Position numbers and translations under genes: made by a program. The notes under the pieces are model-generated. The model did not search any database and had not been told where the DNA came from. It was given only the letters and a program-made list of their open reading frames with translations. A stretch of DNA of 64,000 nt, from positions 20,301 to 84,300 of the forward strand of contig CAMNKK010000002.1 of NCBI GenBank assembly GCA_946542235.1, read 5' to 3'. Of this stretch, positions 15,525 through 31,246 are shown piece after piece. Each line of letters opens with the position of its first letter. Positions within the stretch are counted from its first letter, which is position 1. This DNA is from an uncultured Clostridia bacterium (lineage in GTDB: Bacteria > Bacillota > Clostridia > Christensenellales > Aristaeellaceae).

Positions 15525-17435
15525 ATGAAAAAGTTTCTCGCTCTGGTGATGGCGCTGTGCATGGTTCTGGGCATGGCTTCATTTGCAAGCGCTGATGAGA
15601 TTAAGAATCTCAACACCTACGAGACTCAGGCCCGTGAGCTGGAAACCTGGAACATTCACTATTCCCAGGCAGCGGCTGATCTGAACGTGCTGACCAACTG
15701 CTTTGACGGCCTGCTGACCAACGACAACCACGGCAACCTGAAGCCTAACGCGGCTGCTTCCTACGGAACGGAAGACGGCGGCAAGACCTGGACCTTCACC
15801 CTGAACGAAGGAATGAAGTGGATCAACAAGGACGGCGAGGTCCAGGCGGATGTTGTCGCGCAGGACTGGGCGACCGGTCTGGAATGGGTTCTGAACTACG
15901 CGAAGAACGACTCCTACAACTCCTCCATGCCCATGGAAATGATCGCCGGCGCTGAGGAGTATTACAACTACACCAAGGAGCTGACCGAGACGGAAGGCAC
16001 CGAGGCCGCGTTCGCCCTGACCGCGGACGAGGGTTCCAAGTTCGCCGAGACCGTCGGCATCCAGATTCCGGATGAGAAGACCATCGTGTACACCTGCGTG
16101 GACGCGCTGCCCTACTTCGCTTCCGTGGCGACCTACAACTGCCTGTATCCCCTGAGCGCCGAGCTGATCGAGGAAGTCGGCGTGCAGGGCTACCGCGACA
16201 TCACCTGGGAGGACATGTGGTACAACGGCGCCTATACCGTGACCTACTTCGAGAACCTCAACCAGAAGGTGCTGACCGCGGCCCCCAACTACTGGAACGC
16301 GGAGAACGTGAAGCGGTTTGACACCGTGACCATCAAGATGGTCGAGTCCACCGCCAACGCCTATCAGCTGTATCTGGCCGGCGAGCTGGATCACGTGAGC
16401 CTGGATCAGGCGACCCTGCAGGAAATCTACAATGACGATGCCAACCCCAACAAGGCCAAGCTGGTGGAAGCCCGGCCGACCAAGTACTCCTATCAGATGC
16501 ATCTGGTGTACAGCAAGAACAAGGAAGACGACACGCCCGACGACAACTGGAACACCGCCGTGGCCAACGAGAACTTCCGCAAGAGCCTGTACTACGGCCT
16601 GGATCTGACCAACTATCTGGCCCGGACCAACTCCATCAACCCCCAGAAGTGCCAGAACTACGTCTACACCGGCAACGGCGTGGCCTTCACCTCCGACGGC
16701 AAGGACTACACCGAGCTGGTCCGCAAGGAGATCGGTCTGGAATACGACGCCGAGAAGTACAACCGCTATGACCCCGATAAGGCCGCCGAATACAAGGCCA
16801 AGGCCATTGAAGAGCTGACCGCCAAGGGCGTCACCTTCCCCGTGGAAGTGGACTACTACATCATGGGCAACAACACCACCGCCGCCGAGACGGCCAAGGT
16901 GCTGGAGAATATCTTCGCGGAAGGACTGGGCGAGGACTATGTGAAGCTGGTCACCAAGACCTACATCTCCTCCCTGGCCAACGAAGTGCGCAAACCCCGC
17001 TATGCTTCGATCTTCATCAATGGCTGGGGCGCCGACTTCGCTGACCCGATCAACTTCCTGGGCCAGGAGACCTATGATGACACTGCCGCGTATTACTCCA
17101 ACGCGTACAGCATGATCAATGACGCCAAGGACGAAGATCTGATCGCTGCCTACAAGGAATTCACCGATCTGACCGTTGCGGCCAAGGCCATCACCGATGA
17201 CATTGATGCCCGTTACGCGGCCTTCGCCAAGGCGGAAGCCTGCTTCCTGGGACACTGCCTGACCATCCCCATGAGCTATGAGGTGGCCTGGGAGCTGACC
17301 AAGATCAACAACTACAGCAAGGTGTACAGCGCCTACGGCATGCAGGCCTACCGTTATGTGGACTGGGAGACCAATACTGACGGCTACACCACCGAAGACA
17401 TGGAAGCCTTTGCGGCTGCCTACGCTGCGGAATAA
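15525..17435 (+). CDS. Oligopeptide ABC transporter substrate-binding protein (SBP_bac_5), canonical domain order
   Basis: Signal peptide then N-terminal FDGLLTNDNHGNLKPNAAASY...TFTLNEGMKW, C-terminal GWGADFADPINFL...ARYAAFAKAEACFLGHCLTIPMSYEVAWE. Confidence 0.93.
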   Translation: MKKFLALVMALCMVLGMASFASADEIKNLNTYETQARELETWNIHYSQAAADLNVLTNCFDGLLTNDNHGNLKPNAAASYGTEDGGKTWTFTLNEGMKWINKDGEVQADVVAQDWATGLEWVLNYAKNDSYNSSMPMEMIAGAEEYYNYTKELTETEGTEAAFALTADEGSKFAETVGIQIPDEKTIVYTCVDALPYFASVATYNCLYPLSAELIEEVGVQGYRDITWEDMWYNGAYTVTYFENLNQKVLTAAPNYWNAENVKRFDTVTIKMVESTANAYQLYLAGELDHVSLDQATLQEIYNDDANPNKAKLVEARPTKYSYQMHLVYSKNKEDDTPDDNWNTAVANENFRKSLYYGLDLTNYLARTNSINPQKCQNYVYTGNGVAFTSDGKDYTELVRKEIGLEYDAEKYNRYDPDKAAEYKAKAIEELTAKGVTFPVEVDYYIMGNNTTAAETAKVLENIFAEGLGEDYVKLVTKTYISSLANEVRKPRYASIFINGWGADFADPINFLGQETYDDTAAYYSNAYSMINDAKDEDLIAAYKEFTDLTVAAKAITDDIDARYAAFAKAEACFLGHCLTIPMSYEVAWELTKINNYSKVYSAYGMQAYRYVDWETNTDGYTTEDMEAFAAAYAAE

Positions 17436-17506: not shown

Positions 17507-17589
17507 CTTCCTGTGAGGATGATCCCGGTTCCCGGGAGCCGCCGGAACCCGGGATCATTCCCAGGGAAATGATTGGAGGAGGAACAGGC

Positions 17590-18765
17590 ATGGCCAAATA
17601 CATTCTGAAAAGGCTTTTCCAGTCCCTGATTACGGTGCTGCTGGTCGTCAGCGTGGTATTCATTCTGCTGCGGATGATGCCCTCTGACTACTTCTTCACC
17701 GAGGATGAGCTGATGAAGTTCACCGAGGTTCAGAAGAACGCGAAGCTGGAACGGCTGGGAATCATGGCGATGTGTCCGGAATGCCACGGCAGCGGGAAGA
17801 CGGGAGAAGAGGCCTGCGGGCACTGCCATGGAGAGGGATATGTGAACCGGAGCGTTTTCGCCCAGCTGGGAGATTTCTTCTATGAAATGCTGGAGATGCG
17901 CGCCTACAACGCAAAGGGAAAGGAAGTTAAAACCGTTACGCCCGTGCCGCTGTGGACCTATCTGCGCCAGCAGGGCGCGGGAGAGGATCCCTTCAACGGC
18001 ACGCTGAAGGATGGCTACAGGGTGAAGTTGGCCTTCAACCTGGGAAAGAGCATCCGCCTGGAAAAAGGCCAGTATGTGACGGACGTCATCAGCAACAAGA
18101 TGGGAGTATCCATGGAGATCGGACTGATTTCCCTGGCGATTTCTCTCGTGCTGGGCGTCGTGTTCGGCGTGGCGCAGGCTCACTACAAGGGAGGAGCCTT
18201 CGATCACATCGGCACCGGATTCACGGTGGTGGTCAATGCGGTGCCGCATCTGGTCATCTATACCATCATCATGATCGCGGGCAGCAGCCTGTTCGGTCTG
18301 CCTATGCGGTATGACGCGACGGCGGCCAATCCGACGCTGACCAAGATCCTTCCCATCGTCTGCCTGTCCGTAGCTTCCACCGCCGGATACATGCTGTGGA
18401 CCCGCCGGTACATGGTGGACGAGCTGAACAAGGATTACATCCGACTGGCGAAGCTGAAGGGACTGAGCACCCGGAAGGTCATGTTCCGGCATGTGCTGAA
18501 AAACGCGTTCGTGCCGCTGGCGCAGTATCTGCCCTATTCCATCCTGCTGACGGTCGGCGGCAGCCTGCTGGTGGAAACCTTCTTCTCCGTACCCGGCATG
18601 GGTCCGGAGCTCACCAAGGCGATTGGCCGGTATGACCTGAATCTGGTTCAGGGCATCGTCCTGCTGTATGCGACCATGGGTATTCTGGGCGTGTTCCTGG
18701 GCGACCTGCTGATGACTGTGATTGATCCCCGGATTAAGCTGACAGGGAAGGGAGATGTGCGCTGA
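17590..18765 (+). CDS. Oligopeptide ABC permease (OppB-like) with DnaJ-type zinc-finger repeats in the first extracytoplasmic loop
   Basis: MAKYILKRLFQSLITVLLVVSVVFILLRMMPSDY; EAA-loop-like DELNKDYIRLAKLKGLSTRKVMFRHVLKNAF; CPECHGSG/CGHCHGEG at 17773-17838. Confidence 0.9.
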   Translation: MAKYILKRLFQSLITVLLVVSVVFILLRMMPSDYFFTEDELMKFTEVQKNAKLERLGIMAMCPECHGSGKTGEEACGHCHGEGYVNRSVFAQLGDFFYEMLEMRAYNAKGKEVKTVTPVPLWTYLRQQGAGEDPFNGTLKDGYRVKLAFNLGKSIRLEKGQYVTDVISNKMGVSMEIGLISLAISLVLGVVFGVAQAHYKGGAFDHIGTGFTVVVNAVPHLVIYTIIMIAGSSLFGLPMRYDATAANPTLTKILPIVCLSVASTAGYMLWTRRYMVDELNKDYIRLAKLKGLSTRKVMFRHVLKNAFVPLAQYLPYSILLTVGGSLLVETFFSVPGMGPELTKAIGRYDLNLVQGIVLLYATMGILGVFLGDLLMTVIDPRIKLTGKGDVR

Positions 18766-19829: not shown

Positions 19830-21923
19830 ATGAGCGAAACGAGTGAAAAAATCAGCGGACGCATGCGGGAAGGGATCGAACAGATCCGCGGTGTCGATTT
19901 TGATGAGCGGGCCCGGGCCATTCTGAGCCAGGAGCCCCTGCTGAGCGCCCAGGAGGTGGAGGTGACCTTCAGCCTGCGGGGGAACAAGCTGACCGCCATC
20001 CGGAGGACCTCCCTGGATCTTTATGAGGGGGAAACGCTGGCGATCGTCGGCGAGAGCGGATCCGGCAAGAGCGTGTTTACCAAATGCTTTGTCGGAATGC
20101 TGGACAAGAACGGATCCATCACCCACGGCTCCATCATGTACAACGGACAGGATCTGACCAAGCTGACCGAGAAGGAATGGCTGAAGATCCGCGGCCGGAA
20201 AATTGCCATGGTGACCCAGGACCCCATGACCAGCCTGAACCCCCTGAAAACCGTGGGATGGCAGATTCAGGAAGCGGTTGAACTGCATCAGGGGCTGAAG
20301 GGAAAGGCTGCGAAGGAAGAGACGCTGCGCATTCTGGAGGCTGTCGGCATCCCGGATCCGGCCCGGCGCTACAAGCAGTATCCTCACGAATTCTCCGGCG
20401 GCATGCGGCAGCGCGTCGTCATTGCCATCGCCGTGGCCTGCAAGCCGCAGATTCTGATCTGCGACGAACCGACCACCGCCCTGGACGTGACCATTCAGGC
20501 GCAGATTCTGGACCTGATCCGGAGACTCCAGAAGGAACAGAACATGACCATCATCTATATCACCCATGATTTGGGGGTGGTGGCCAACGTCGCGGACCGG
20601 GTCGCGGTCATGTATGCCGGACAGATTATCGAAGTGGGGATGTGCAACGAAGTTTTCTTTGATCCCTGGCATCCCTATACCTGGGCGCTGCTGCAGGCGC
20701 TTCCGCAGCTGGGCGTCAAGGGAGAAAAGCTGCCCGCCATCGACGGAACGCCCCCCAACCTGTTCAACGAGATTCAGGGAGACGCCTTTGCACCCCGGAA
20801 CAAGAAGGCGCTGAACATAGACTTTCTGGAAGAGCCGCCCATGTACGAGGTGACCAGCACGCACATGGTCAAGGCCTGGCTGCGGGATCCCCGGGCCCCG
20901 AAGGTGGAGCAGCCCACAGCCATCGCCAGGCTGGCGGAGACGAGGCAAGAGACGGGTACAGACCCCGATGCGTACCATCCGCACCTGGATCCGAACCGGG
21001 AAACCCTGATCGAAGTCAAAAACATGCAGGTGACCTTCGGAAGCGGCCGGCACAAGTTTGTGGCGGTGGATGACGTCAACTTCGAAATCTACAAGGGAGA
21101 AACATTCTCCCTGGTGGGCGAGTCCGGATCCGGAAAAACCACGATCGGACGGGCGATTGTCAGGATCAATCCGATCACCGGCGGCGAGGTGCGTTTCAAG
21201 GGAGAGCGCATCAGCGGCAAGATCAGCCGGGAACTGGACACGAAGGTAATCCGCTCCATGCAGATGATTTTCCAGGACCCCATGGCCTCCCTGAACGAGC
21301 GGGCGAAGGTGGACTACATCGTATCGGAAGGACTGATGAACTTCCACCTGTATGAGAATGAGCACGACCGGCAGGACAAGGTGCAGGAGGCGCTCCGGGA
21401 AGTAGGCCTGCTTCCGGAATTTTCCAGCCGGTTCCCCCACGAGTTCTCCGGCGGGCAGCGGCAGCGCATCGGCATTGCCCGCAGCCTGATCATGCAGCCG
21501 GAATTCATTGTGGCGGACGAGCCCATTTCCGCGCTGGATGTATCCATCCGGGCCCAGGTGCTGAACCTGCTGAACGACATGAAGAAAAAGCGCGGGCTGA
21601 CCTATCTGTTCATTGCGCATGACCTGTCCGTCGTCCGGTTTATCTCGGACCGGATCGCCGTCATTCACAAGGGCAGAATCTTGGAACTGGCGGAGGCGGA
21701 GGAGCTGTTCTTCCGGCCCATGCATCCCTATACCAAGGCCTTGCTTTCCGCCGTACCGAATCCGAACCCCTATCTGGAGCGGAGCAAAAAGCTGTTGGTC
21801 TACGATCCCTCCATCCACGATTATTCCTCCGAGAAGCCAAAGTGGGCCGAGCTGATTCCGGGCCATTTTGTCTACGGAAACGAGCGGGAGCTGGACGGTT
21901 ACCGGAAGGAATTCAACCTGTAA
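19830..21923 (+). CDS. Fused dual ATP-binding protein (AmiE/OppD + AmiF/OppF in one polypeptide)
   Basis: Two Walker A motifs ([22 protein letters not shown]), two signatures ([18 protein letters not shown]), two oligo-peptide C-terminal regions. Confidence 0.95.
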
Positions 21924-23164: not shown

Positions 23165-25309
23165 ATGACCAAGTTTGCAAAGATCCTGTCCCTGGTTCTT
23201 GCTCTGACCATGCTGTGCGGCGTGGCGATGGGCGAGGGTGCTCAGACGGCTGCGGCTGCGCAGACGGAAGTGGATATGGACGCCTATGAAGCGGCCTCCA
23301 CCGAAATCTACGAAGCTGTGCTGGGTGAGTTCTACAAGGTTTATGTGGACGCGAAAGCGGAGGTGGAGAACCTCAGCAAGCGGTATGCCGAAATGGCGAT
23401 TGCCGAGGCGAAGATCCTGGGCTCCGCTGTGATGATTCCCCTGGAGAGCCGCGGCGGCAACTATGCCATCACCCGGATTGCTCCCCGTTCCGCGAACACC
23501 ACCCTGTGGGGCAACGACTCCGACCGTGTGCACCAGATGATCATCGTCAAGGATGGCATTCTGAAGAGCTCCGAAGTCGAGGATCTGCGGAATCTGTGGA
23601 ATGAAGTCCGCGGCACCGGCACCTACGATGAAAAGGCCAAGGCCTATCTGACCGAAAAGGGCTACGAACTGACGGACGTATACAACTACGCCTACTCCAG
23701 CGACCCGAACACCTGGGACGTGCTGGCCACCTCCAAGCAGGCGGACAGCCGGGCCATCATCAACACCTATGACGGCCTGTACGAATATGATGAAGAGAAC
23801 GAGATGCAGCCCGCCCTGGCGACCGGTTACACCGTGAGCGAGGACGGCCTGACCTACACCTTCACCATCCGCGAAGGCGCGGTGTGGGTGGACAGCCAGG
23901 GCCGCAAGGTTGCCGACGTCAAGGCGGATGACTGGGTTGCCGGCATGCAGCATATGATGGATGCCGCGGAAGGTCTGGAATATCTGGTCGGCCCCGACGG
24001 CTGCAACATCGCCGGCGCGCAGGCCTACATGAACGGCGAAACCACCGACTTTGCCACCGTGGGCGTGAAGGCTCCCGATGACAAGACCCTGGTTTACACC
24101 CTGGCCGCTCCGTCCCCCTTCTTCACCACCATGCTGGGCTACGGCGTGTTTGCTCCCATGAGCCGGGATTACTACACCTCCCAGGGCGGTCAGTTCGGCG
24201 CGGACTACAACCCCGAAGCGGAAACCTACCTGTACGGCAAGGATCCCGATCACATCGCCTACAACGGTCCGTATCTGGTGACCAACTCCACCAAGGAGAA
24301 CACCATCGTGTTCCAGGCCAACGAGAACTACTGGAACAAGGACCACATCAACATCCACACCGTGAACTGGTACTACAATGACGGCACCGATGCCCTGAAG
24401 GCTTACAATGACTTCAAGGCCGGTATTCTGTCCGGCTGCGGCCTGAACTCCTCCGCTGCCGAGCAGGCGAAGGCGGACGGCCTGTTCGAAGAGCATTCCT
24501 ACATCGCTCAGACGGACGCCACCTCCTTCATGGGCTTCTTCAACGTGAACCGTCACGCGTTCGCGAACTTCAACGATGCCACCGCGGTGGTTTCTCCCCA
24601 GACTGTGGAAGACGCTGCCCGGACCCATCAGGCGATGCAGAACATCAACTTCCGCCGGGCTCTGCTGATGAGCCTGGACCGCGGCGCCTATGAAGCCCAG
24701 TCCGTCGGCGAAGAGCTGAAGTATGCCGCCCTGATCAACAGCTACACCCCCGGCAACTTCGTGAGCCTGCCCGAGGAAGTGACCGTGCAGATCAACGGCG
24801 AAGACAAGACCTATCCCGCCGGCACCTACTACGGCCAGATTATGCAGGATCAGCTGGATGCCGACGGCGTGACCGCCAAGGTGTGGGATGCCGAGACGCA
24901 GATGAGCTCCGGCTTCGACGGATGGTACAACGTGGAGAACGCCAAGGTCTATCTGGACAAGGCGATCGAAGAGCTGGCCGCCGAAGGCCTGGTGATTGAC
25001 GCGGAGCATCCGATCTATCTGGATGTGCCCACCTTCACCGGCAGTGAGATTTACAACAACCGCGAGGAAGCCCTGAAGCAGTCCGTGGCTGCCGCTTCCG
25101 ACAACCGGATCGTGATCAACAAGGTGGATTGCCCCACCTCGAACGACTGGTACTATGCGGGATACTATTACAATACCGGACACGAAGCGAACTTCGACAT
25201 CTGCGATCTGTCCGGATGGGGCCCCGACTATGGCGATCCGCAGAGCTATCTGGACACCATGCTGCCCGACTATGCCGGCTACATGGTCAAGGCTCTGGGC
25301 ATCTTCTAA
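23165..25309 (+). CDS. AmiA/OppA-type substrate-binding protein with apparently circularly permuted domain order
   Basis: N-terminal RYAEMAIAEAKILGSAVMIPLESRGGNYAITRI segment is normally C-terminal; protein ends just after GWGPDYGDPQSYLDTMLPDYAGYMVKALGIF. Confidence 0.88.
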   Translation: MTKFAKILSLVLALTMLCGVAMGEGAQTAAAAQTEVDMDAYEAASTEIYEAVLGEFYKVYVDAKAEVENLSKRYAEMAIAEAKILGSAVMIPLESRGGNYAITRIAPRSANTTLWGNDSDRVHQMIIVKDGILKSSEVEDLRNLWNEVRGTGTYDEKAKAYLTEKGYELTDVYNYAYSSDPNTWDVLATSKQADSRAIINTYDGLYEYDEENEMQPALATGYTVSEDGLTYTFTIREGAVWVDSQGRKVADVKADDWVAGMQHMMDAAEGLEYLVGPDGCNIAGAQAYMNGETTDFATVGVKAPDDKTLVYTLAAPSPFFTTMLGYGVFAPMSRDYYTSQGGQFGADYNPEAETYLYGKDPDHIAYNGPYLVTNSTKENTIVFQANENYWNKDHINIHTVNWYYNDGTDALKAYNDFKAGILSGCGLNSSAAEQAKADGLFEEHSYIAQTDATSFMGFFNVNRHAFANFNDATAVVSPQTVEDAARTHQAMQNINFRRALLMSLDRGAYEAQSVGEELKYAALINSYTPGNFVSLPEEVTVQINGEDKTYPAGTYYGQIMQDQLDADGVTAKVWDAETQMSSGFDGWYNVENAKVYLDKAIEELAAEGLVIDAEHPIYLDVPTFTGSEIYNNREEALKQSVAAASDNRIVINKVDCPTSNDWYYAGYYYNTGHEANFDICDLSGWGPDYGDPQSYLDTMLPDYAGYMVKALGIF

Positions 25310-25535: not shown

Positions 25536-27104
25536 ATGACGAAGTACCTGTTTCGACGGCTGCTGCACGGGCTGATTTCCGTGATTATTGTAGTGGCTAT
25601 CGTCATGATCCTGATCTATTCCTGCCTGGACCGGCAGCTGATCTTTGCCCAGGATCCGGTTTTCACCCAGCTGGGCAACAATCAGAAGGTCGTGTATCAA
25701 TACCGGAAATGGGAAGACTACGGATATATCGACTATGTCCCCTATCCGGAATGGCTGCAGACCATTGCCGCGTCGGAGAATCTTACCCAGGAACAGGTTG
25801 CATCCCTGTCCTCGATCGGCAGGAAGGCCGAAGCAGATCCGGAGGAAGTGGCAGCCTATGTGGCGCGTTTCACGGATTATTATAAGGGACAGGGATACAC
25901 CGTCACCCGGCTGGACGCCAAGATGAGCAAGAAGAAGGTGGCGCCCGGCGGGCAACAGCAGCTCTTTGCCTTCAAGGATAAGCCGCTGATGGGTCGGCTG
26001 TGGAACTATCTGACCGGGCTGGTCAGCCTGGACAATATCCACTATGTGAAGGAAGATATCGGCCAGCGGGGACTGACCTTTACCCTGCATGATCCGCTCT
26101 ATGGCGGGAAGACCTTTGCACCGGCCATCATCGGCAACGGGACGCTGCACAAGTATCTGCTGTATACCGACAACAGATTTCCCTTCATTCACCAGAACCT
26201 GGTGAACATCAATCTGGGAAAGAGCTATACCGTCAACAGCGGTGTGGATGTCTTCCAGAGCATGAACGCTCCCCAGGGCTCCTATGTGAGCCGGGAGATT
26301 ACCTATCCCACCGGGCATACGGAGATCAGCGCGGATGATCTGCACAGCGCAACCTATGCGGCCGGATCCCGGGAGGCCAACCTTGTAAACAGGGACCGCT
26401 TTACGGACGACTATACCAACGTTGTTACGGTGAAGAGCGGTCTGAGCCAGATCGGATACTCCTTCGTGATCGGCATTATCGCGTCAGCCCTGGCCTATCT
26501 GCTGGGTGTGCCCATCGGCATTATCATGGCCCGGAAGAAGGACCAGCTGATCGACAAGATCGGAACAGTCTATATCGTCTTCATCATTGCCGTACCCTCC
26601 CTGGCCTACATTTTCCTGTTCAAGGCGATCGGCTACAGCATGGGGCTGCCTACCACCTTCAACATGGACAGCAATGACTGGCGGATGTACGCGCTGCCCA
26701 TCATCTCCCTGGCGCTGCCTTCGGTGGCGAACCTGATGAAGTGGCTGCGCCGGTACATGATTGACCAGATGAACTCGGATTACGTCAAGTTTGCCCGGTC
26801 CGGCGGACTGAGCGAGCGTGAGATCTTCACTCATCATATTCTGAAAAACGCCATTATCCCGCTGGTGCATGGGATTCCCGGCACCATTCTGGGAGCGCTG
26901 GTGGGCGCCATCATTACGGAGCGCGTTTACGTGGTGCCCGGCGCCGGCAACCTGCTGACGAAGGCCATTAACATGTTTGACAACGGCGTCATCGTGGGCG
27001 TGACGCTGTTCTATGCCATGCTGAGCGTGATCTCCATCATCCTCGGGGATATCCTGATGTCCATGGTGGATCCCAGAATCTCCTTTACATCGAAAGCGAG
27101 GTAG
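25536..27104 (+). CDS. AmiC-like oligopeptide ABC permease with large extracytoplasmic domain
   Basis: MTKYLFRRLLHGLISVIIVVAIVMILIYSCLDRQLIFAQDP...FPFIHQNLVNINLGKSY...RRYMIDQMNSDYVKFARSGGLSEREIFTHHILKNA. Confidence 0.9.
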   Translation: MTKYLFRRLLHGLISVIIVVAIVMILIYSCLDRQLIFAQDPVFTQLGNNQKVVYQYRKWEDYGYIDYVPYPEWLQTIAASENLTQEQVASLSSIGRKAEADPEEVAAYVARFTDYYKGQGYTVTRLDAKMSKKKVAPGGQQQLFAFKDKPLMGRLWNYLTGLVSLDNIHYVKEDIGQRGLTFTLHDPLYGGKTFAPAIIGNGTLHKYLLYTDNRFPFIHQNLVNINLGKSYTVNSGVDVFQSMNAPQGSYVSREITYPTGHTEISADDLHSATYAAGSREANLVNRDRFTDDYTNVVTVKSGLSQIGYSFVIGIIASALAYLLGVPIGIIMARKKDQLIDKIGTVYIVFIIAVPSLAYIFLFKAIGYSMGLPTTFNMDSNDWRMYALPIISLALPSVANLMKWLRRYMIDQMNSDYVKFARSGGLSEREIFTHHILKNAIIPLVHGIPGTILGALVGAIITERVYVVPGAGNLLTKAINMFDNGVIVGVTLFYAMLSVISIILGDILMSMVDPRISFTSKAR

Positions 27105-27109
27105 GATGA

Positions 27110-28087
27110 ATGAACGATAAAATGATTGATCTGAGCGATCTGAACCTGAGCGAGGAGGAGCTGTTCAGCCATGTGGACCACTCTTCGCTGGAAAGCGAAA
27201 AAATCACGGCGCCCCGGTACTCCTACTGGCGGAGCGTGTTCCGGGTTTTCTTTCACAAGCGGATCAACGTCGTGATCCTGGCGCTGTTTGCGGTGATCCT
27301 GGCCTTTACCTACATTTATCCGATGCTGGTGGAATACGACCCCTTTGCCAACCTGATGAATTCCTCGGCGAAGCATCTGCTGCCCGGCGTGGCCATGGAA
27401 CGGCTGGGAAGAAACATCCACTGGATTCTGGGAAGCGGCGCCTCGGGCCAGTCCACCTTTGACGCGGTCTGGTTCGGCAGCAGGATCAGCGTCACGATGG
27501 CCTTTATCTGCGCGGCCATCAACCTGACGGTGGGCGTGGTGATCGGCGCAGTCTGGGGATTCAGCAAGAAGGTCGACATCGTGATGACCGAGGTGTACAA
27601 CATCATCGGCAACGTGCCTTACATCCTGTTCATTTCGGTGCTGGTGCTGATTTTCTCCGCGGGATTCTGGACGATGGTTTTCGCCCTGACCATTACCGGC
27701 TGGCTCTTCATCGCCTACTTTATCCGGACCCAGGTAGTTATTATCCGGGACCGGGAATACAATCTGGCCTCCCGCTGCCTGGGAACCCCGATCCTGCGGA
27801 TCGCGATGAAAAACATCCTGCCTTTCATGACCAGCGTGATCGTTACCCTCGCGGCTACGGAGATCCCCACCTACATCAGCTATGAGGTGTTCCTGTCCTA
27901 TATCGGCATGGGTATGAGCGACATGAGCCTGGGCCGCCTGATCTATCAGGCGGAAAACGCCATGCTGACGCCCGGCTGGCAGTTCGAATTCTGGAGCCCG
28001 GTGGCGGTGGCTTCCATTATTACCGTCGTACTGTATGTGGTGGGACAGAACCTGGGCGATGCTTCTGACCCCAGAACCCATATGTGA
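27110..28087 (+). CDS. AmiD/OppC-like oligopeptide ABC permease
   Basis: APRYSYWRSVFRVFFHKRINVVILALFAVILAFTYIYP...DREYNLASRCLGTPILRIAMKNILPF...SDPRTHM. Confidence 0.92.
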   Translation: MNDKMIDLSDLNLSEEELFSHVDHSSLESEKITAPRYSYWRSVFRVFFHKRINVVILALFAVILAFTYIYPMLVEYDPFANLMNSSAKHLLPGVAMERLGRNIHWILGSGASGQSTFDAVWFGSRISVTMAFICAAINLTVGVVIGAVWGFSKKVDIVMTEVYNIIGNVPYILFISVLVLIFSAGFWTMVFALTITGWLFIAYFIRTQVVIIRDREYNLASRCLGTPILRIAMKNILPFMTSVIVTLAATEIPTYISYEVFLSYIGMGMSDMSLGRLIYQAENAMLTPGWQFEFWSPVAVASIITVVLYVVGQNLGDASDPRTHM

Positions 28088-28095
28088 GGTAGAAA

Positions 28096-29859
28096 ATGGA
28101 TAAGATGACGCAGAACCCGAACCATGTGCTGCTGAGCGTGCATGACCTGGAAGTGAAATTCCGGGTGCGCGGACGGATCCTGACTGCGATCCGGAACATT
28201 TCCCTGGATATTTTTGAAAACGAATCCATTGCCATCGTAGGCGAGAGCGGATCCGGCAAGAGCGTGTTTACCAAAACCTTTGCCGGAATGCTGGACTCCA
28301 ACGGGTTTATCGACAGGGGAAGCATCGTGTTCGATGATCCGGAGCTTGCGGACACAAAGGTTTCGCTGACGGCCGGTATCCGCAGCAGTCTGGAAAAGTG
28401 CAGAAAGAAGCTGGATGAATACAGCCTGCTGGAAGCCGGCGCATCCACCTGGAGGGAGCTCCGGAACCTGGAGGAGGCGCGGGAAAAGAAAGCGGCCCTT
28501 TCCGATGAGGAAATAGAACAGATGGACAGCGAACTGAGCGAGCTGGTGTTCCAGCGGACCGAGCTGTTCAATCAGCGGCAGACCTACGATCCGAAGAACG
28601 AGAAGGAACAGATCCGCCAGGCGGGCGCAAAGCTCAAGGAGATGGACGCCCGGATCCGGAAGATGCAGGATCAGAAGAAGGAAAGGATCGCGGAGCGGAA
28701 GCGGGAAGCCGCCGCTGACCATGCCTGGCAGGCGGAAACCCGGGAAAAGATTCAGGCACTGCAGCGCAGATACAGGGAGGAGACTGCCCGGCCCATCTCG
28801 AAGGAACAGCAGGAGCGGAATGTGATCCTGGCCAAGGAGATTGAGCTTTCCACCGGAAGATACAGCCCCGCGAAGCGGAGCAGGACCGTCCGGGCCCTGC
28901 TGGCAGCGCTGAAAAAAGCGATGCAGGAGGGCAAGAATCTGGAGGACGAGGGAACCCGCAACGAAGTGTTCGAGCCCGTCACCTTCCGGGTCCGCTACCT
29001 GGATGAAACGGAGGAATGGCTCCACGGAACCTGCGTACTGGACCTGGCAAAGATCAGGGATCCCAAGGACTGGACCAAGGTTCGGGGCACCCGGATTGCC
29101 ACGGTTTTCCAGGATCCCATGACCAGCCTGAACCCCATCATCACCATCGGCAAGCAGATCACCTCCATTATTCTGAAGCATCAGAACTGCAGCGAGGTGG
29201 AAGCCCGGAGGAGAGCGCTGGAGCTGATGAAGAAGGTCGGGATTCCCAACGCGGAGAACCGCTTTGACGACTATCCCTTCCAGTACTCCGGCGGCATGCG
29301 GCAGCGGATTGTTATTGCCATCGCCCTGAGCTGCCAGCCGAAAATTCTGATCTGCGACGAGCCTACGACGGCGCTGGATGTGACCATCCAGGCGCAGATT
29401 CTGAAGCTGCTGAAGGACCTGCAGAGAGAGTTCCAGTATACCATTGTGTTTATCACCCATGACCTGGGCGTGGTGGCCAACATCGCGGACCGGGTGGCCG
29501 TCATGTATGCAGGCCAGATCGTGGAATACGGCGGAGTCGAAGAGGTGTTTTACGATCCGCGGCATCCCTATACCTGGGCTCTGCTTTCCTCCCTTCCCCA
29601 GCTGGCAAAGAAGGATACCGTGCTGTATTCCATCGCGGGAACGCCGCCCAGCCTGTACAACAAGATTGTGGGTGACCCCTTTGCTCCCCGGAATCCTTAC
29701 TGTATGAAGATCGATACACTGAAGGAGCCGCCGATGTTCCAGGTCTCGGAAACCCATTTCGCCAAGACCTGGCTGGAAGATCCCAGAAGCCCGAAGGTAC
29801 AGAAGCCTGAGATCATCGAGAACATCCACGAAAAGCTGATAGAGGCCTTCAACATCTGA
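28096..29859 (+). CDS. AmiE/OppD-like ATP-binding protein with ~234-aa charged coiled-coil insertion
   Basis: [18 protein letters not shown], then insertion 28339-29040, then [43 protein letters not shown]. Confidence 0.92.
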
Positions 29860-29953: not shown

Positions 29954-31246
29954 ATGGCAAAGCAAGAAAGCAACGTCACGGCTCATCTGCCGGAACACGG
30001 CCCCCTGAACGAGGAGGGACGGGAGATCCTGCTGTCCCTGAAGAATGTGGATATCACCTTCGGCAAGGATGAGAACGCGGTCCGCGCGGTGAAGAATGCC
30101 TCCTTCGATATTTTCAAGGGAGAAACCTTCTCCCTGGTCGGAGAGAGCGGATCCGGCAAGACCACGATCGGACGGGCGGTGATCCGGGTCAATCCATGCG
30201 CGGCGGGAGAAATCCAGTACAAGGGCGTCCGCATCAGCGGTAAAATTCCCCGCAGCCTTGACCGGGAAGTCATCCGGAATATTCAGATGGTTTTTCAGGA
30301 TCCCGCCGCCTCCCTGAACGAACGGGCAACGGTGGACTATATTATCTCGGAAGGCCTGTACAATTTCCATCTGTTTGAGAATGAGGCGGATCGGGTAAAG
30401 AAGGTGGAGACCATCATCAATGAGGTGGGTCTGCTGCCGGAGCATCTGACCAGGTATCCGCACGAGTTTTCCGGAGGACAGCGCCAGCGGATCGGGCTGG
30501 CCCGCGCCATGGTGATGGAGCCGGAGCTGGTCATCGCGGACGAGCCCATCTCCGCCCTGGACGTTTCCATCCGGGCGCAGGTGCTGAACCTGATGAAGAA
30601 GTTCCAGAAGGAAAGGGATATCACCTATCTGTTCATTGCTCACGATCTGAGCATCGTCCGGTTTATTTCGGACCGGATCGCGGTGATCTACAAGGGAGAC
30701 ATCGTGGAAATTGCAGAGACGGATGAGCTGTTCAATTATCCGCTGCATCCCTATACCCGCAGCCTGATTTCCGCCATTCCCATTCCCGATCCGAAGCTGG
30801 AGAAGCACAAGGTGCTGTTCACCTATGATCCCTCCGTCCATGACTACTCCGTGGACAAGCCCAGCCTGCAGGATATCGGGCACAACCACTTTGTGTACGG
30901 AAACGCGAAGGAAATCGAAGCCTACAGGGCGCAGCGCGAATCCGGGACTCCGCTGAAGTCCATTACCATTCTGCCGGAGAATGAGGAAGCGCCCAGCAGC
31001 ATCCAGGAAGACACCAAGGTGGACGAGGATTTCCTGCGGACGCCGGTTCATGACACGGGAAACATCTGGCTGGCAGTGCTGGCTTTCTTCCTCCCGCTGC
31101 TGGGCCTGATCGGCACCTGGCTGTTTAAAAAGTATCACCACTTCCGGAACTACAAGGTCTGCCGCAGGGGAACCATTGCCGGCTTTGCCGTGCTGGGCGC
31201 GATTGTGGTACTGTTCGGGCTGTTCCTGCTGCTGTCCGTACTCTGA
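29954..31246 (+). CDS. AmiF/OppF-like ATP-binding protein with C-terminal two-TM extension
   Basis: [57 protein letters not shown]; tail [22 protein letters not shown]...[25 protein letters not shown]. Confidence 0.93.

Follow-up and report, generated by a model that had tools for sequence, protein, structure and literature searches.

A natural circular permutant of an AmiA-type peptide-binding protein, probable receptor of an Ami/Opp-type importer in Clostridia

Results

SBP B, encoded in the window (the whole stretch of 64,000 nucleotides analysed here), is very probably the receptor of an Ami/Opp-type ABC importer (SBP B-AmiC-AmiD-AmiE-AmiF), with peptides as its presumed ligands, and a natural circular permutant of one AmiA-type gene. 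The original prediction, a circular permutation of an AmiA/OppA-type binding protein, is supported by sequence comparison, profiles, a structural model with a canonical control from the same genus, and a tree. SBP B is specified by an intact open reading frame (23165-25309, + strand, 714 aa) with a good ribosome-binding site, AAGGAAG, ahead of its ATG. As listed in Table 1, a signal peptide and short linker are followed by the old C-terminal segment, a connector, and then the old N-terminal and middle part. The protein is nearest in sequence and fold to AmiA, AliB, AliC and AliD, as judged from sequence matches, structure search and tree. However, the order N-lobe, GWGPD, C-terminal segment of Ami/Ali-type proteins is rotated in SBP B, and because of this it is a permuted variant of these proteins rather than a canonical member.

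Table 1. Coordinates of the binding proteins, of the segments of SBP B and of its operon in the window.
Feature	Coordinates	Strand	Remarks
SBP A, canonical-order oligopeptide-binding protein	15525..17435	+	internal comparison for SBP B
SBP B signal peptide, end approximate	23165..23233	+	no usable lipobox in window lineage; sequence MTKFAKILSLVLALTMLCGVAMGEG
SBP B moved segment, lobe 2 part	23276..23446	+	helices at residues 38-65 and 70-86; strand at 90-94
SBP B moved segment, lobe 1 part, canonically the C-terminus	23447..23611	+	strands and alpha19-like helix (residues 135-148)
SBP B connector GTGTY..AK.YL.EKGY.L.D	23609..23665	+	links old C-terminus to old N-terminus
SBP B old N-terminal and middle part	23666..25306	+	SBP_bac_5 match at residues 213-701; end ..MVKALGIF
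SBP B GWGPDY motif (W685, D688)	25214..25231	+	binds the peptide N-terminus in AliB/AliD
AmiC-type permease, 522 aa, large extracellular region	25536..27104	+
AmiD/OppC-type permease	27110..28087	+
AmiE/OppD-type ATPase with ~218-aa insert (about 28387-29040)	28096..29859	+
AmiF/OppF-type ATPase with C-terminal extension	29954..31246	+

The swapped order can be seen in pairwise comparisons. By BLASTP, SBP B matched SBP A in two swapped blocks, residues 183-696 of B with 41-512 of A (E 3e-33) and 51-93 of B with 541-583 of A (E 2e-5). Similarly, residues 171-699 matched 14-497 of AmiA (8a42; 248 bits) and residues 44-159 matched 515-630 (19.6 bits), while in AliC (8qlh) residues 163-713 corresponded to 4-506 and 51-111 to 518-578. 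A profile of 76 permuted family members gave swapped blocks against AliB also, and three blocks against AliD. A sequence search of the solved structures found no PDB chain matching the permuted order in one piece. Profile-profile comparison of the N-terminal segment of the 76 permuted proteins with a set of 32 canonical ones gave a match to their C-terminus (prob 97.8, E 7e-13); reversing the profile on either side, or using the permuted family's own core, gave none. When all fetched open reading frames were searched with an HMM of the moved segment, it was found before the core in 99 proteins, a count that includes some overlapping loci, and after the core in 39, but in no protein on both sides; in all 39 canonical proteins with any match, only the C-terminus was hit.

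These results confirm that the normally C-terminal segment sits N-terminally in SBP B and aligns with SBP_bac_5 C-termini, and that SBP A has the canonical order. The moved tail does lie where the original prediction had put it (about 23270-23670), with limits now drawn at about 23285-23611 and the new connector following at about 23609-23665. It was likewise proposed that SBP B stops where a canonical chain would continue; this holds, and the cut is refined to just after ..LGIF, soon after the GWGPDY motif. The connector, of about 19 residues (consensus GTGTYExWAKxYLxEKGYTLKD), is conserved among the permuted proteins and missing from canonical ones.

A scan of GTDB species genomes gave at least 171 relatives of SBP B. 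Of 80 that were kept, about 75 were full length and could be aligned colinearly with the window protein as a single set. These full-length relatives, from separate genomes and 51-94% identical, have the same order as SBP B, and nearly all share its stop position (..GIF or ..GIY). Cultured carriers include Roseburia inulinivorans DSM 16841 and Butyrivibrio hungatei DSM 14810. Two genes fused artificially by misassembly or a frameshift might be suspected in a draft genome as fragmented as that of the window (157 contigs), but the recurrence of one order in some 75 relatives from different studies and from cultured strains refutes this and leaves that explanation a negligible probability. In an evenly drawn sample of the class, a permuted binding protein was present in 4 other genomes of 290; a sample of 399 genomes of the phylum yielded none outside the class. 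The permuted family is widespread, and many Clostridia of gut and rumen employ it, presumably in food uptake. Among 25 genomes of the window's own genus, 7 carried a permuted and 5 a canonical AmiA-type protein, and none carried both; mutual exclusion is not claimed, such a pattern having a chance probability of about 16%.

The structure of SBP B was predicted with AlphaFold2 on the family alignment. The model is one compact fold (pLDDT 94.1, pTM 0.89), in which the moved N-terminal segment has pLDDT values of mostly 88-98 and is confidently packed rather than appended as a separate domain. As a control, a canonical AmiA-type protein of the same genus, L125, was modelled on a 32-row alignment (pLDDT 90.1, pTM 0.86). 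Elements H5-32, H37-53, E57-61, E67-70 and H102-115 of the permuted model correspond to H519-542 (with one break), H545-561, E566-570, E575-578 and H613-626 of the canonical one, and the elements from E139-144 to H222-234 correspond to those from E8-13 to H90-102 at a near-constant offset of 131-132. With Foldseek, the canonical model aligned end to end with AmiA and AliB (TM 0.89-0.90 across 624-633 columns), whereas the permuted model aligned with AmiA and AliD over just 546-548 columns, the larger piece (TM 0.64-0.74); a shorter alignment is what a sequential program such as Foldseek would be expected to give if the moved part is out of its reach. From the confidence values, the element order and the alignment with AliD, the N-terminal segment of SBP B is predicted to pack in its canonical place, giving the canonical bilobed fold with the connection alone altered.

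The possibility that the N-terminal segment is an added domain outside the lobe, on a protein with a plainly truncated C-terminus, was also considered. Such a reading would fit the Pfam annotation, which covers residues 213-701 only (SBP_bac_5, PF00496; 136.1 bits against a cut-off of 32.4). It seems very improbable, however, in view of the specific homology of the segment to canonical C-termini, the compact model with high confidence throughout and the rotated element order.

In AliD, lobe 1 consists of residues 29-63, 64-190, 191-296 and 583-617, lobe 2 of residues 297-582, and helix alpha19 of residues 622-652 (PMC11192437). The permutation cut maps by alignment to about AliD 525-529 in lobe 2 (domain III), a numbering inferred from chain length and uncertain by a few residues, which on this alignment places both ends of SBP B in lobe 2. 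The counterpart of residues 38-94 of SBP B closes domain III in canonical proteins (domain limits from PMC11192437). In the model, lobe 1 of SBP B is predicted to be continuous and lobe 2 split, the reverse of canonical proteins, where an uninterrupted lobe 2 is inserted into a split lobe 1; the same two interlobe crossings are predicted to be kept. Loss of basic charge from alpha19 was rejected as an effect of the permutation, the canonical tails of the same genus being likewise short and non-basic.

Most permuted relatives carry a lipobox (51 of 77 by a strict pattern, and several more by eye), with a linker preceding the moved segment. The N-terminal lipobox typical of Ami/Ali-type proteins is absent from SBP B and from the window's lineage. 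Where present, the lipid anchor would thus be shifted from lobe 1 to lobe 2; the signal peptide, together with the anchor in most relatives, would then lie on lobe 2, and the receptor would be held at the membrane by the opposite lobe.

Several features of the N-terminal regions were recorded besides. SBP A and SBP B both lack a lipobox, yet their own genome holds 8 Lgt-family matches. Four permuted proteins (L047, L049, L050 and L074) have a twin-arginine type signal (SRRDFLKG), and at L049, L050 and L074 a second related binding protein lies upstream, 48-50% identical over the part seen. At L072 (4819-8040), the frame upstream of the permuted gene contains a long acidic repeat (EAPTEAETEEVT), which may be an unusually long linker.

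The W and D of the GWGPD motif (W685 and D688 in SBP B) do not vary among the 76 permuted and the 32 canonical proteins compared. A GWGPDY-type motif binds the peptide N-terminus in AliB and AliD, and the equivalent residues of AliB, W500 and D503, contact and hold it (PMC11192437). In the pneumococcal model the extracellular region of AmiC clamps the receptor (PMC11192437), and the window AmiC retains this region. Since W and D are invariant and the AmiC extracellular region is kept, the best reading is that SBP B would import peptides by the usual lobe-closing mechanism. Oligopeptides would be captured by lobe closure through the same GWGPD motif, as in AmiA and AliB, and SBP B would dock onto the retained extracellular domains of AmiC.

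The locus encodes an Ami-type operon: AmiC with a large extracellular part, AmiD, AmiE and AmiF. The gene order SBP-AmiC-AmiD-AmiE-AmiF is common to permuted and canonical operons, and the window AmiC can be aligned end to end with its counterparts in canonical operons of the same genus (41-42% identity). A tree of the shared SBP core was built from 64 rows and 553 columns, two of the canonical rows being long-branched; in it a single branch (100/99) sets all permuted proteins apart. Next to them lie canonical AmiA-type proteins, among them five of the window's genus and a pair found in a single genome of another family of the phylum. A tree of permeases and AmiF gave the same split between permuted and canonical members (support 99). 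Because the SBP and operon trees each place all sampled permuted members on one branch, there was a single permutation event, followed by inheritance together with the protein's own permeases and ATPases.

The AmiE insert is charge-rich and coiled-coil-like and lies ahead of the Q-loop region. It is present in nearly all permuted operons and absent from the canonical sisters. Strict coupling between permutation and insert was rejected, five permuted operons (L057, L059, L063, L069 and L071) having short ATPases without it. For these five, loss of the insert is likelier because the deepest permuted clade (L130-L133) carries it. The AmiF extension (about 31046-31243) contains two membrane-helix-like stretches and is absent in the deeper permuted clade L130-L133. 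In the SBP A operon, a permease (17569-18765) bears a DnaJ-type zinc-finger-like motif, CPECHGSG...CGHCHGEG, between its first membrane helix and the remainder, and two ATPases that are separate genes in relatives L142-L144 are fused in one 697-aa reading frame (19830-21923).

Discussion

The permutation very probably arose when one ancestral AmiA-type gene in Clostridia gained a new start within old domain III and the old C- and N-termini became joined through the short conserved connector. The likely route is a tandem duplication whose outer ends were later lost. A surviving duplication intermediate, which would carry the tail segment twice, was not seen among the 158 proteins with a core match.

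A chimera has to be weighed here: the tail of a different SBP gene might have been fused ahead of an AmiA-type protein lacking its own tail, making the event a fusion and not a permutation. The moved segment has diverged from canonical proteins far more than the core (about 20-33 against 228-351 bits), and in a tree of the segment alone it joins AmiA-type tails only loosely (72/51). An origin from a different gene was also raised by the authors of the Tp0684 study for their own protein (PMC4990184). Lower bit scores are, however, expected of a segment so much shorter than the core; the segment fits the predicted fold with high confidence; and the tail tree, weakly supported as it is, prefers AmiA-type to SBP A-type tails and is compatible with a same-gene origin. 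We therefore regard a chimera as improbable, and an origin of the moved tail from the same gene is favoured by these sequence comparisons.

Within the same genus, canonical AmiA-type homologues occupy the equivalent place in the operon, which offers a natural experiment on whether the anchor-bearing lobe matters for import, a question that the authors of the Tp0684 study raised without settling (PMC4990184). A rather doubtful suggestion is that the permutation is adaptive: an anchor on lobe 2 in place of lobe 1 might change the membrane-side lobe and the handover to the AmiC extracellular domains, and together with the AmiE insert might make up a re-wired Ami importer, which then became widespread among Clostridia of gut and rumen. 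Domain libraries hide permutations of this sort, Pfam and NCBIfam annotating SBP B merely as an ordinary SBP_bac_5 protein.

Few natural circular permutations have been reported in binding proteins, and here one is carried by a widespread family. The only natural case that we found is Tp0684 (MglB-2) of Treponema pallidum, a cluster B sugar-binding protein whose type of permutant occurs in treponemes and Gram-positives (PMC4990184). Natural permutation of a binding protein is thus already known; no report of it in an Opp/Ami-type protein was found in the open literature (most subscription journals lay outside the search), within which the present case appears new.

Like SBP B, Tp0684 and its relatives ('Type Ic / Cluster Bc'; PMC4990184) are natural permutants of an ABC binding protein with the fold kept. 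They differ in that strands were moved to the C-terminal end of Tp0684 with a fourth interlobe crossing, whereas in SBP B a C-terminal segment was moved to the front with no added crossing. The Type I/cluster B sugar-binding fold of Tp0684 was not seen in SBP B either, the fifty best PDB matches of its model being OppA/DppA/NikA-like (cluster C-type) proteins. The domain-swapped dimer of AliC (8qlh) resembles SBP B as an Ami-type protein with an alternative lobe connection. Its swap hinge lies between the lobes at residues 290-294, in contrast to the cut inside domain III, and by this position a domain swap was rejected as the origin of the cut.

The pneumococcal AmiA, AliB, AliC and AliD proteins (8a42, 8qlj, 8qlh and 8qlc; PMC11192437) are alike to SBP B in sequence family, predicted fold and GWGPD motif, and the Ami/Ali transporter is likewise composed of a binding protein, AmiC with a large extracellular region, AmiD, AmiE and AmiF. 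In contrast to that system, the segments of SBP B are rotated, both of its ends would lie in lobe 2 and not in lobe 1, an extra connector is present, and most permuted operons carry a large insert in AmiE.
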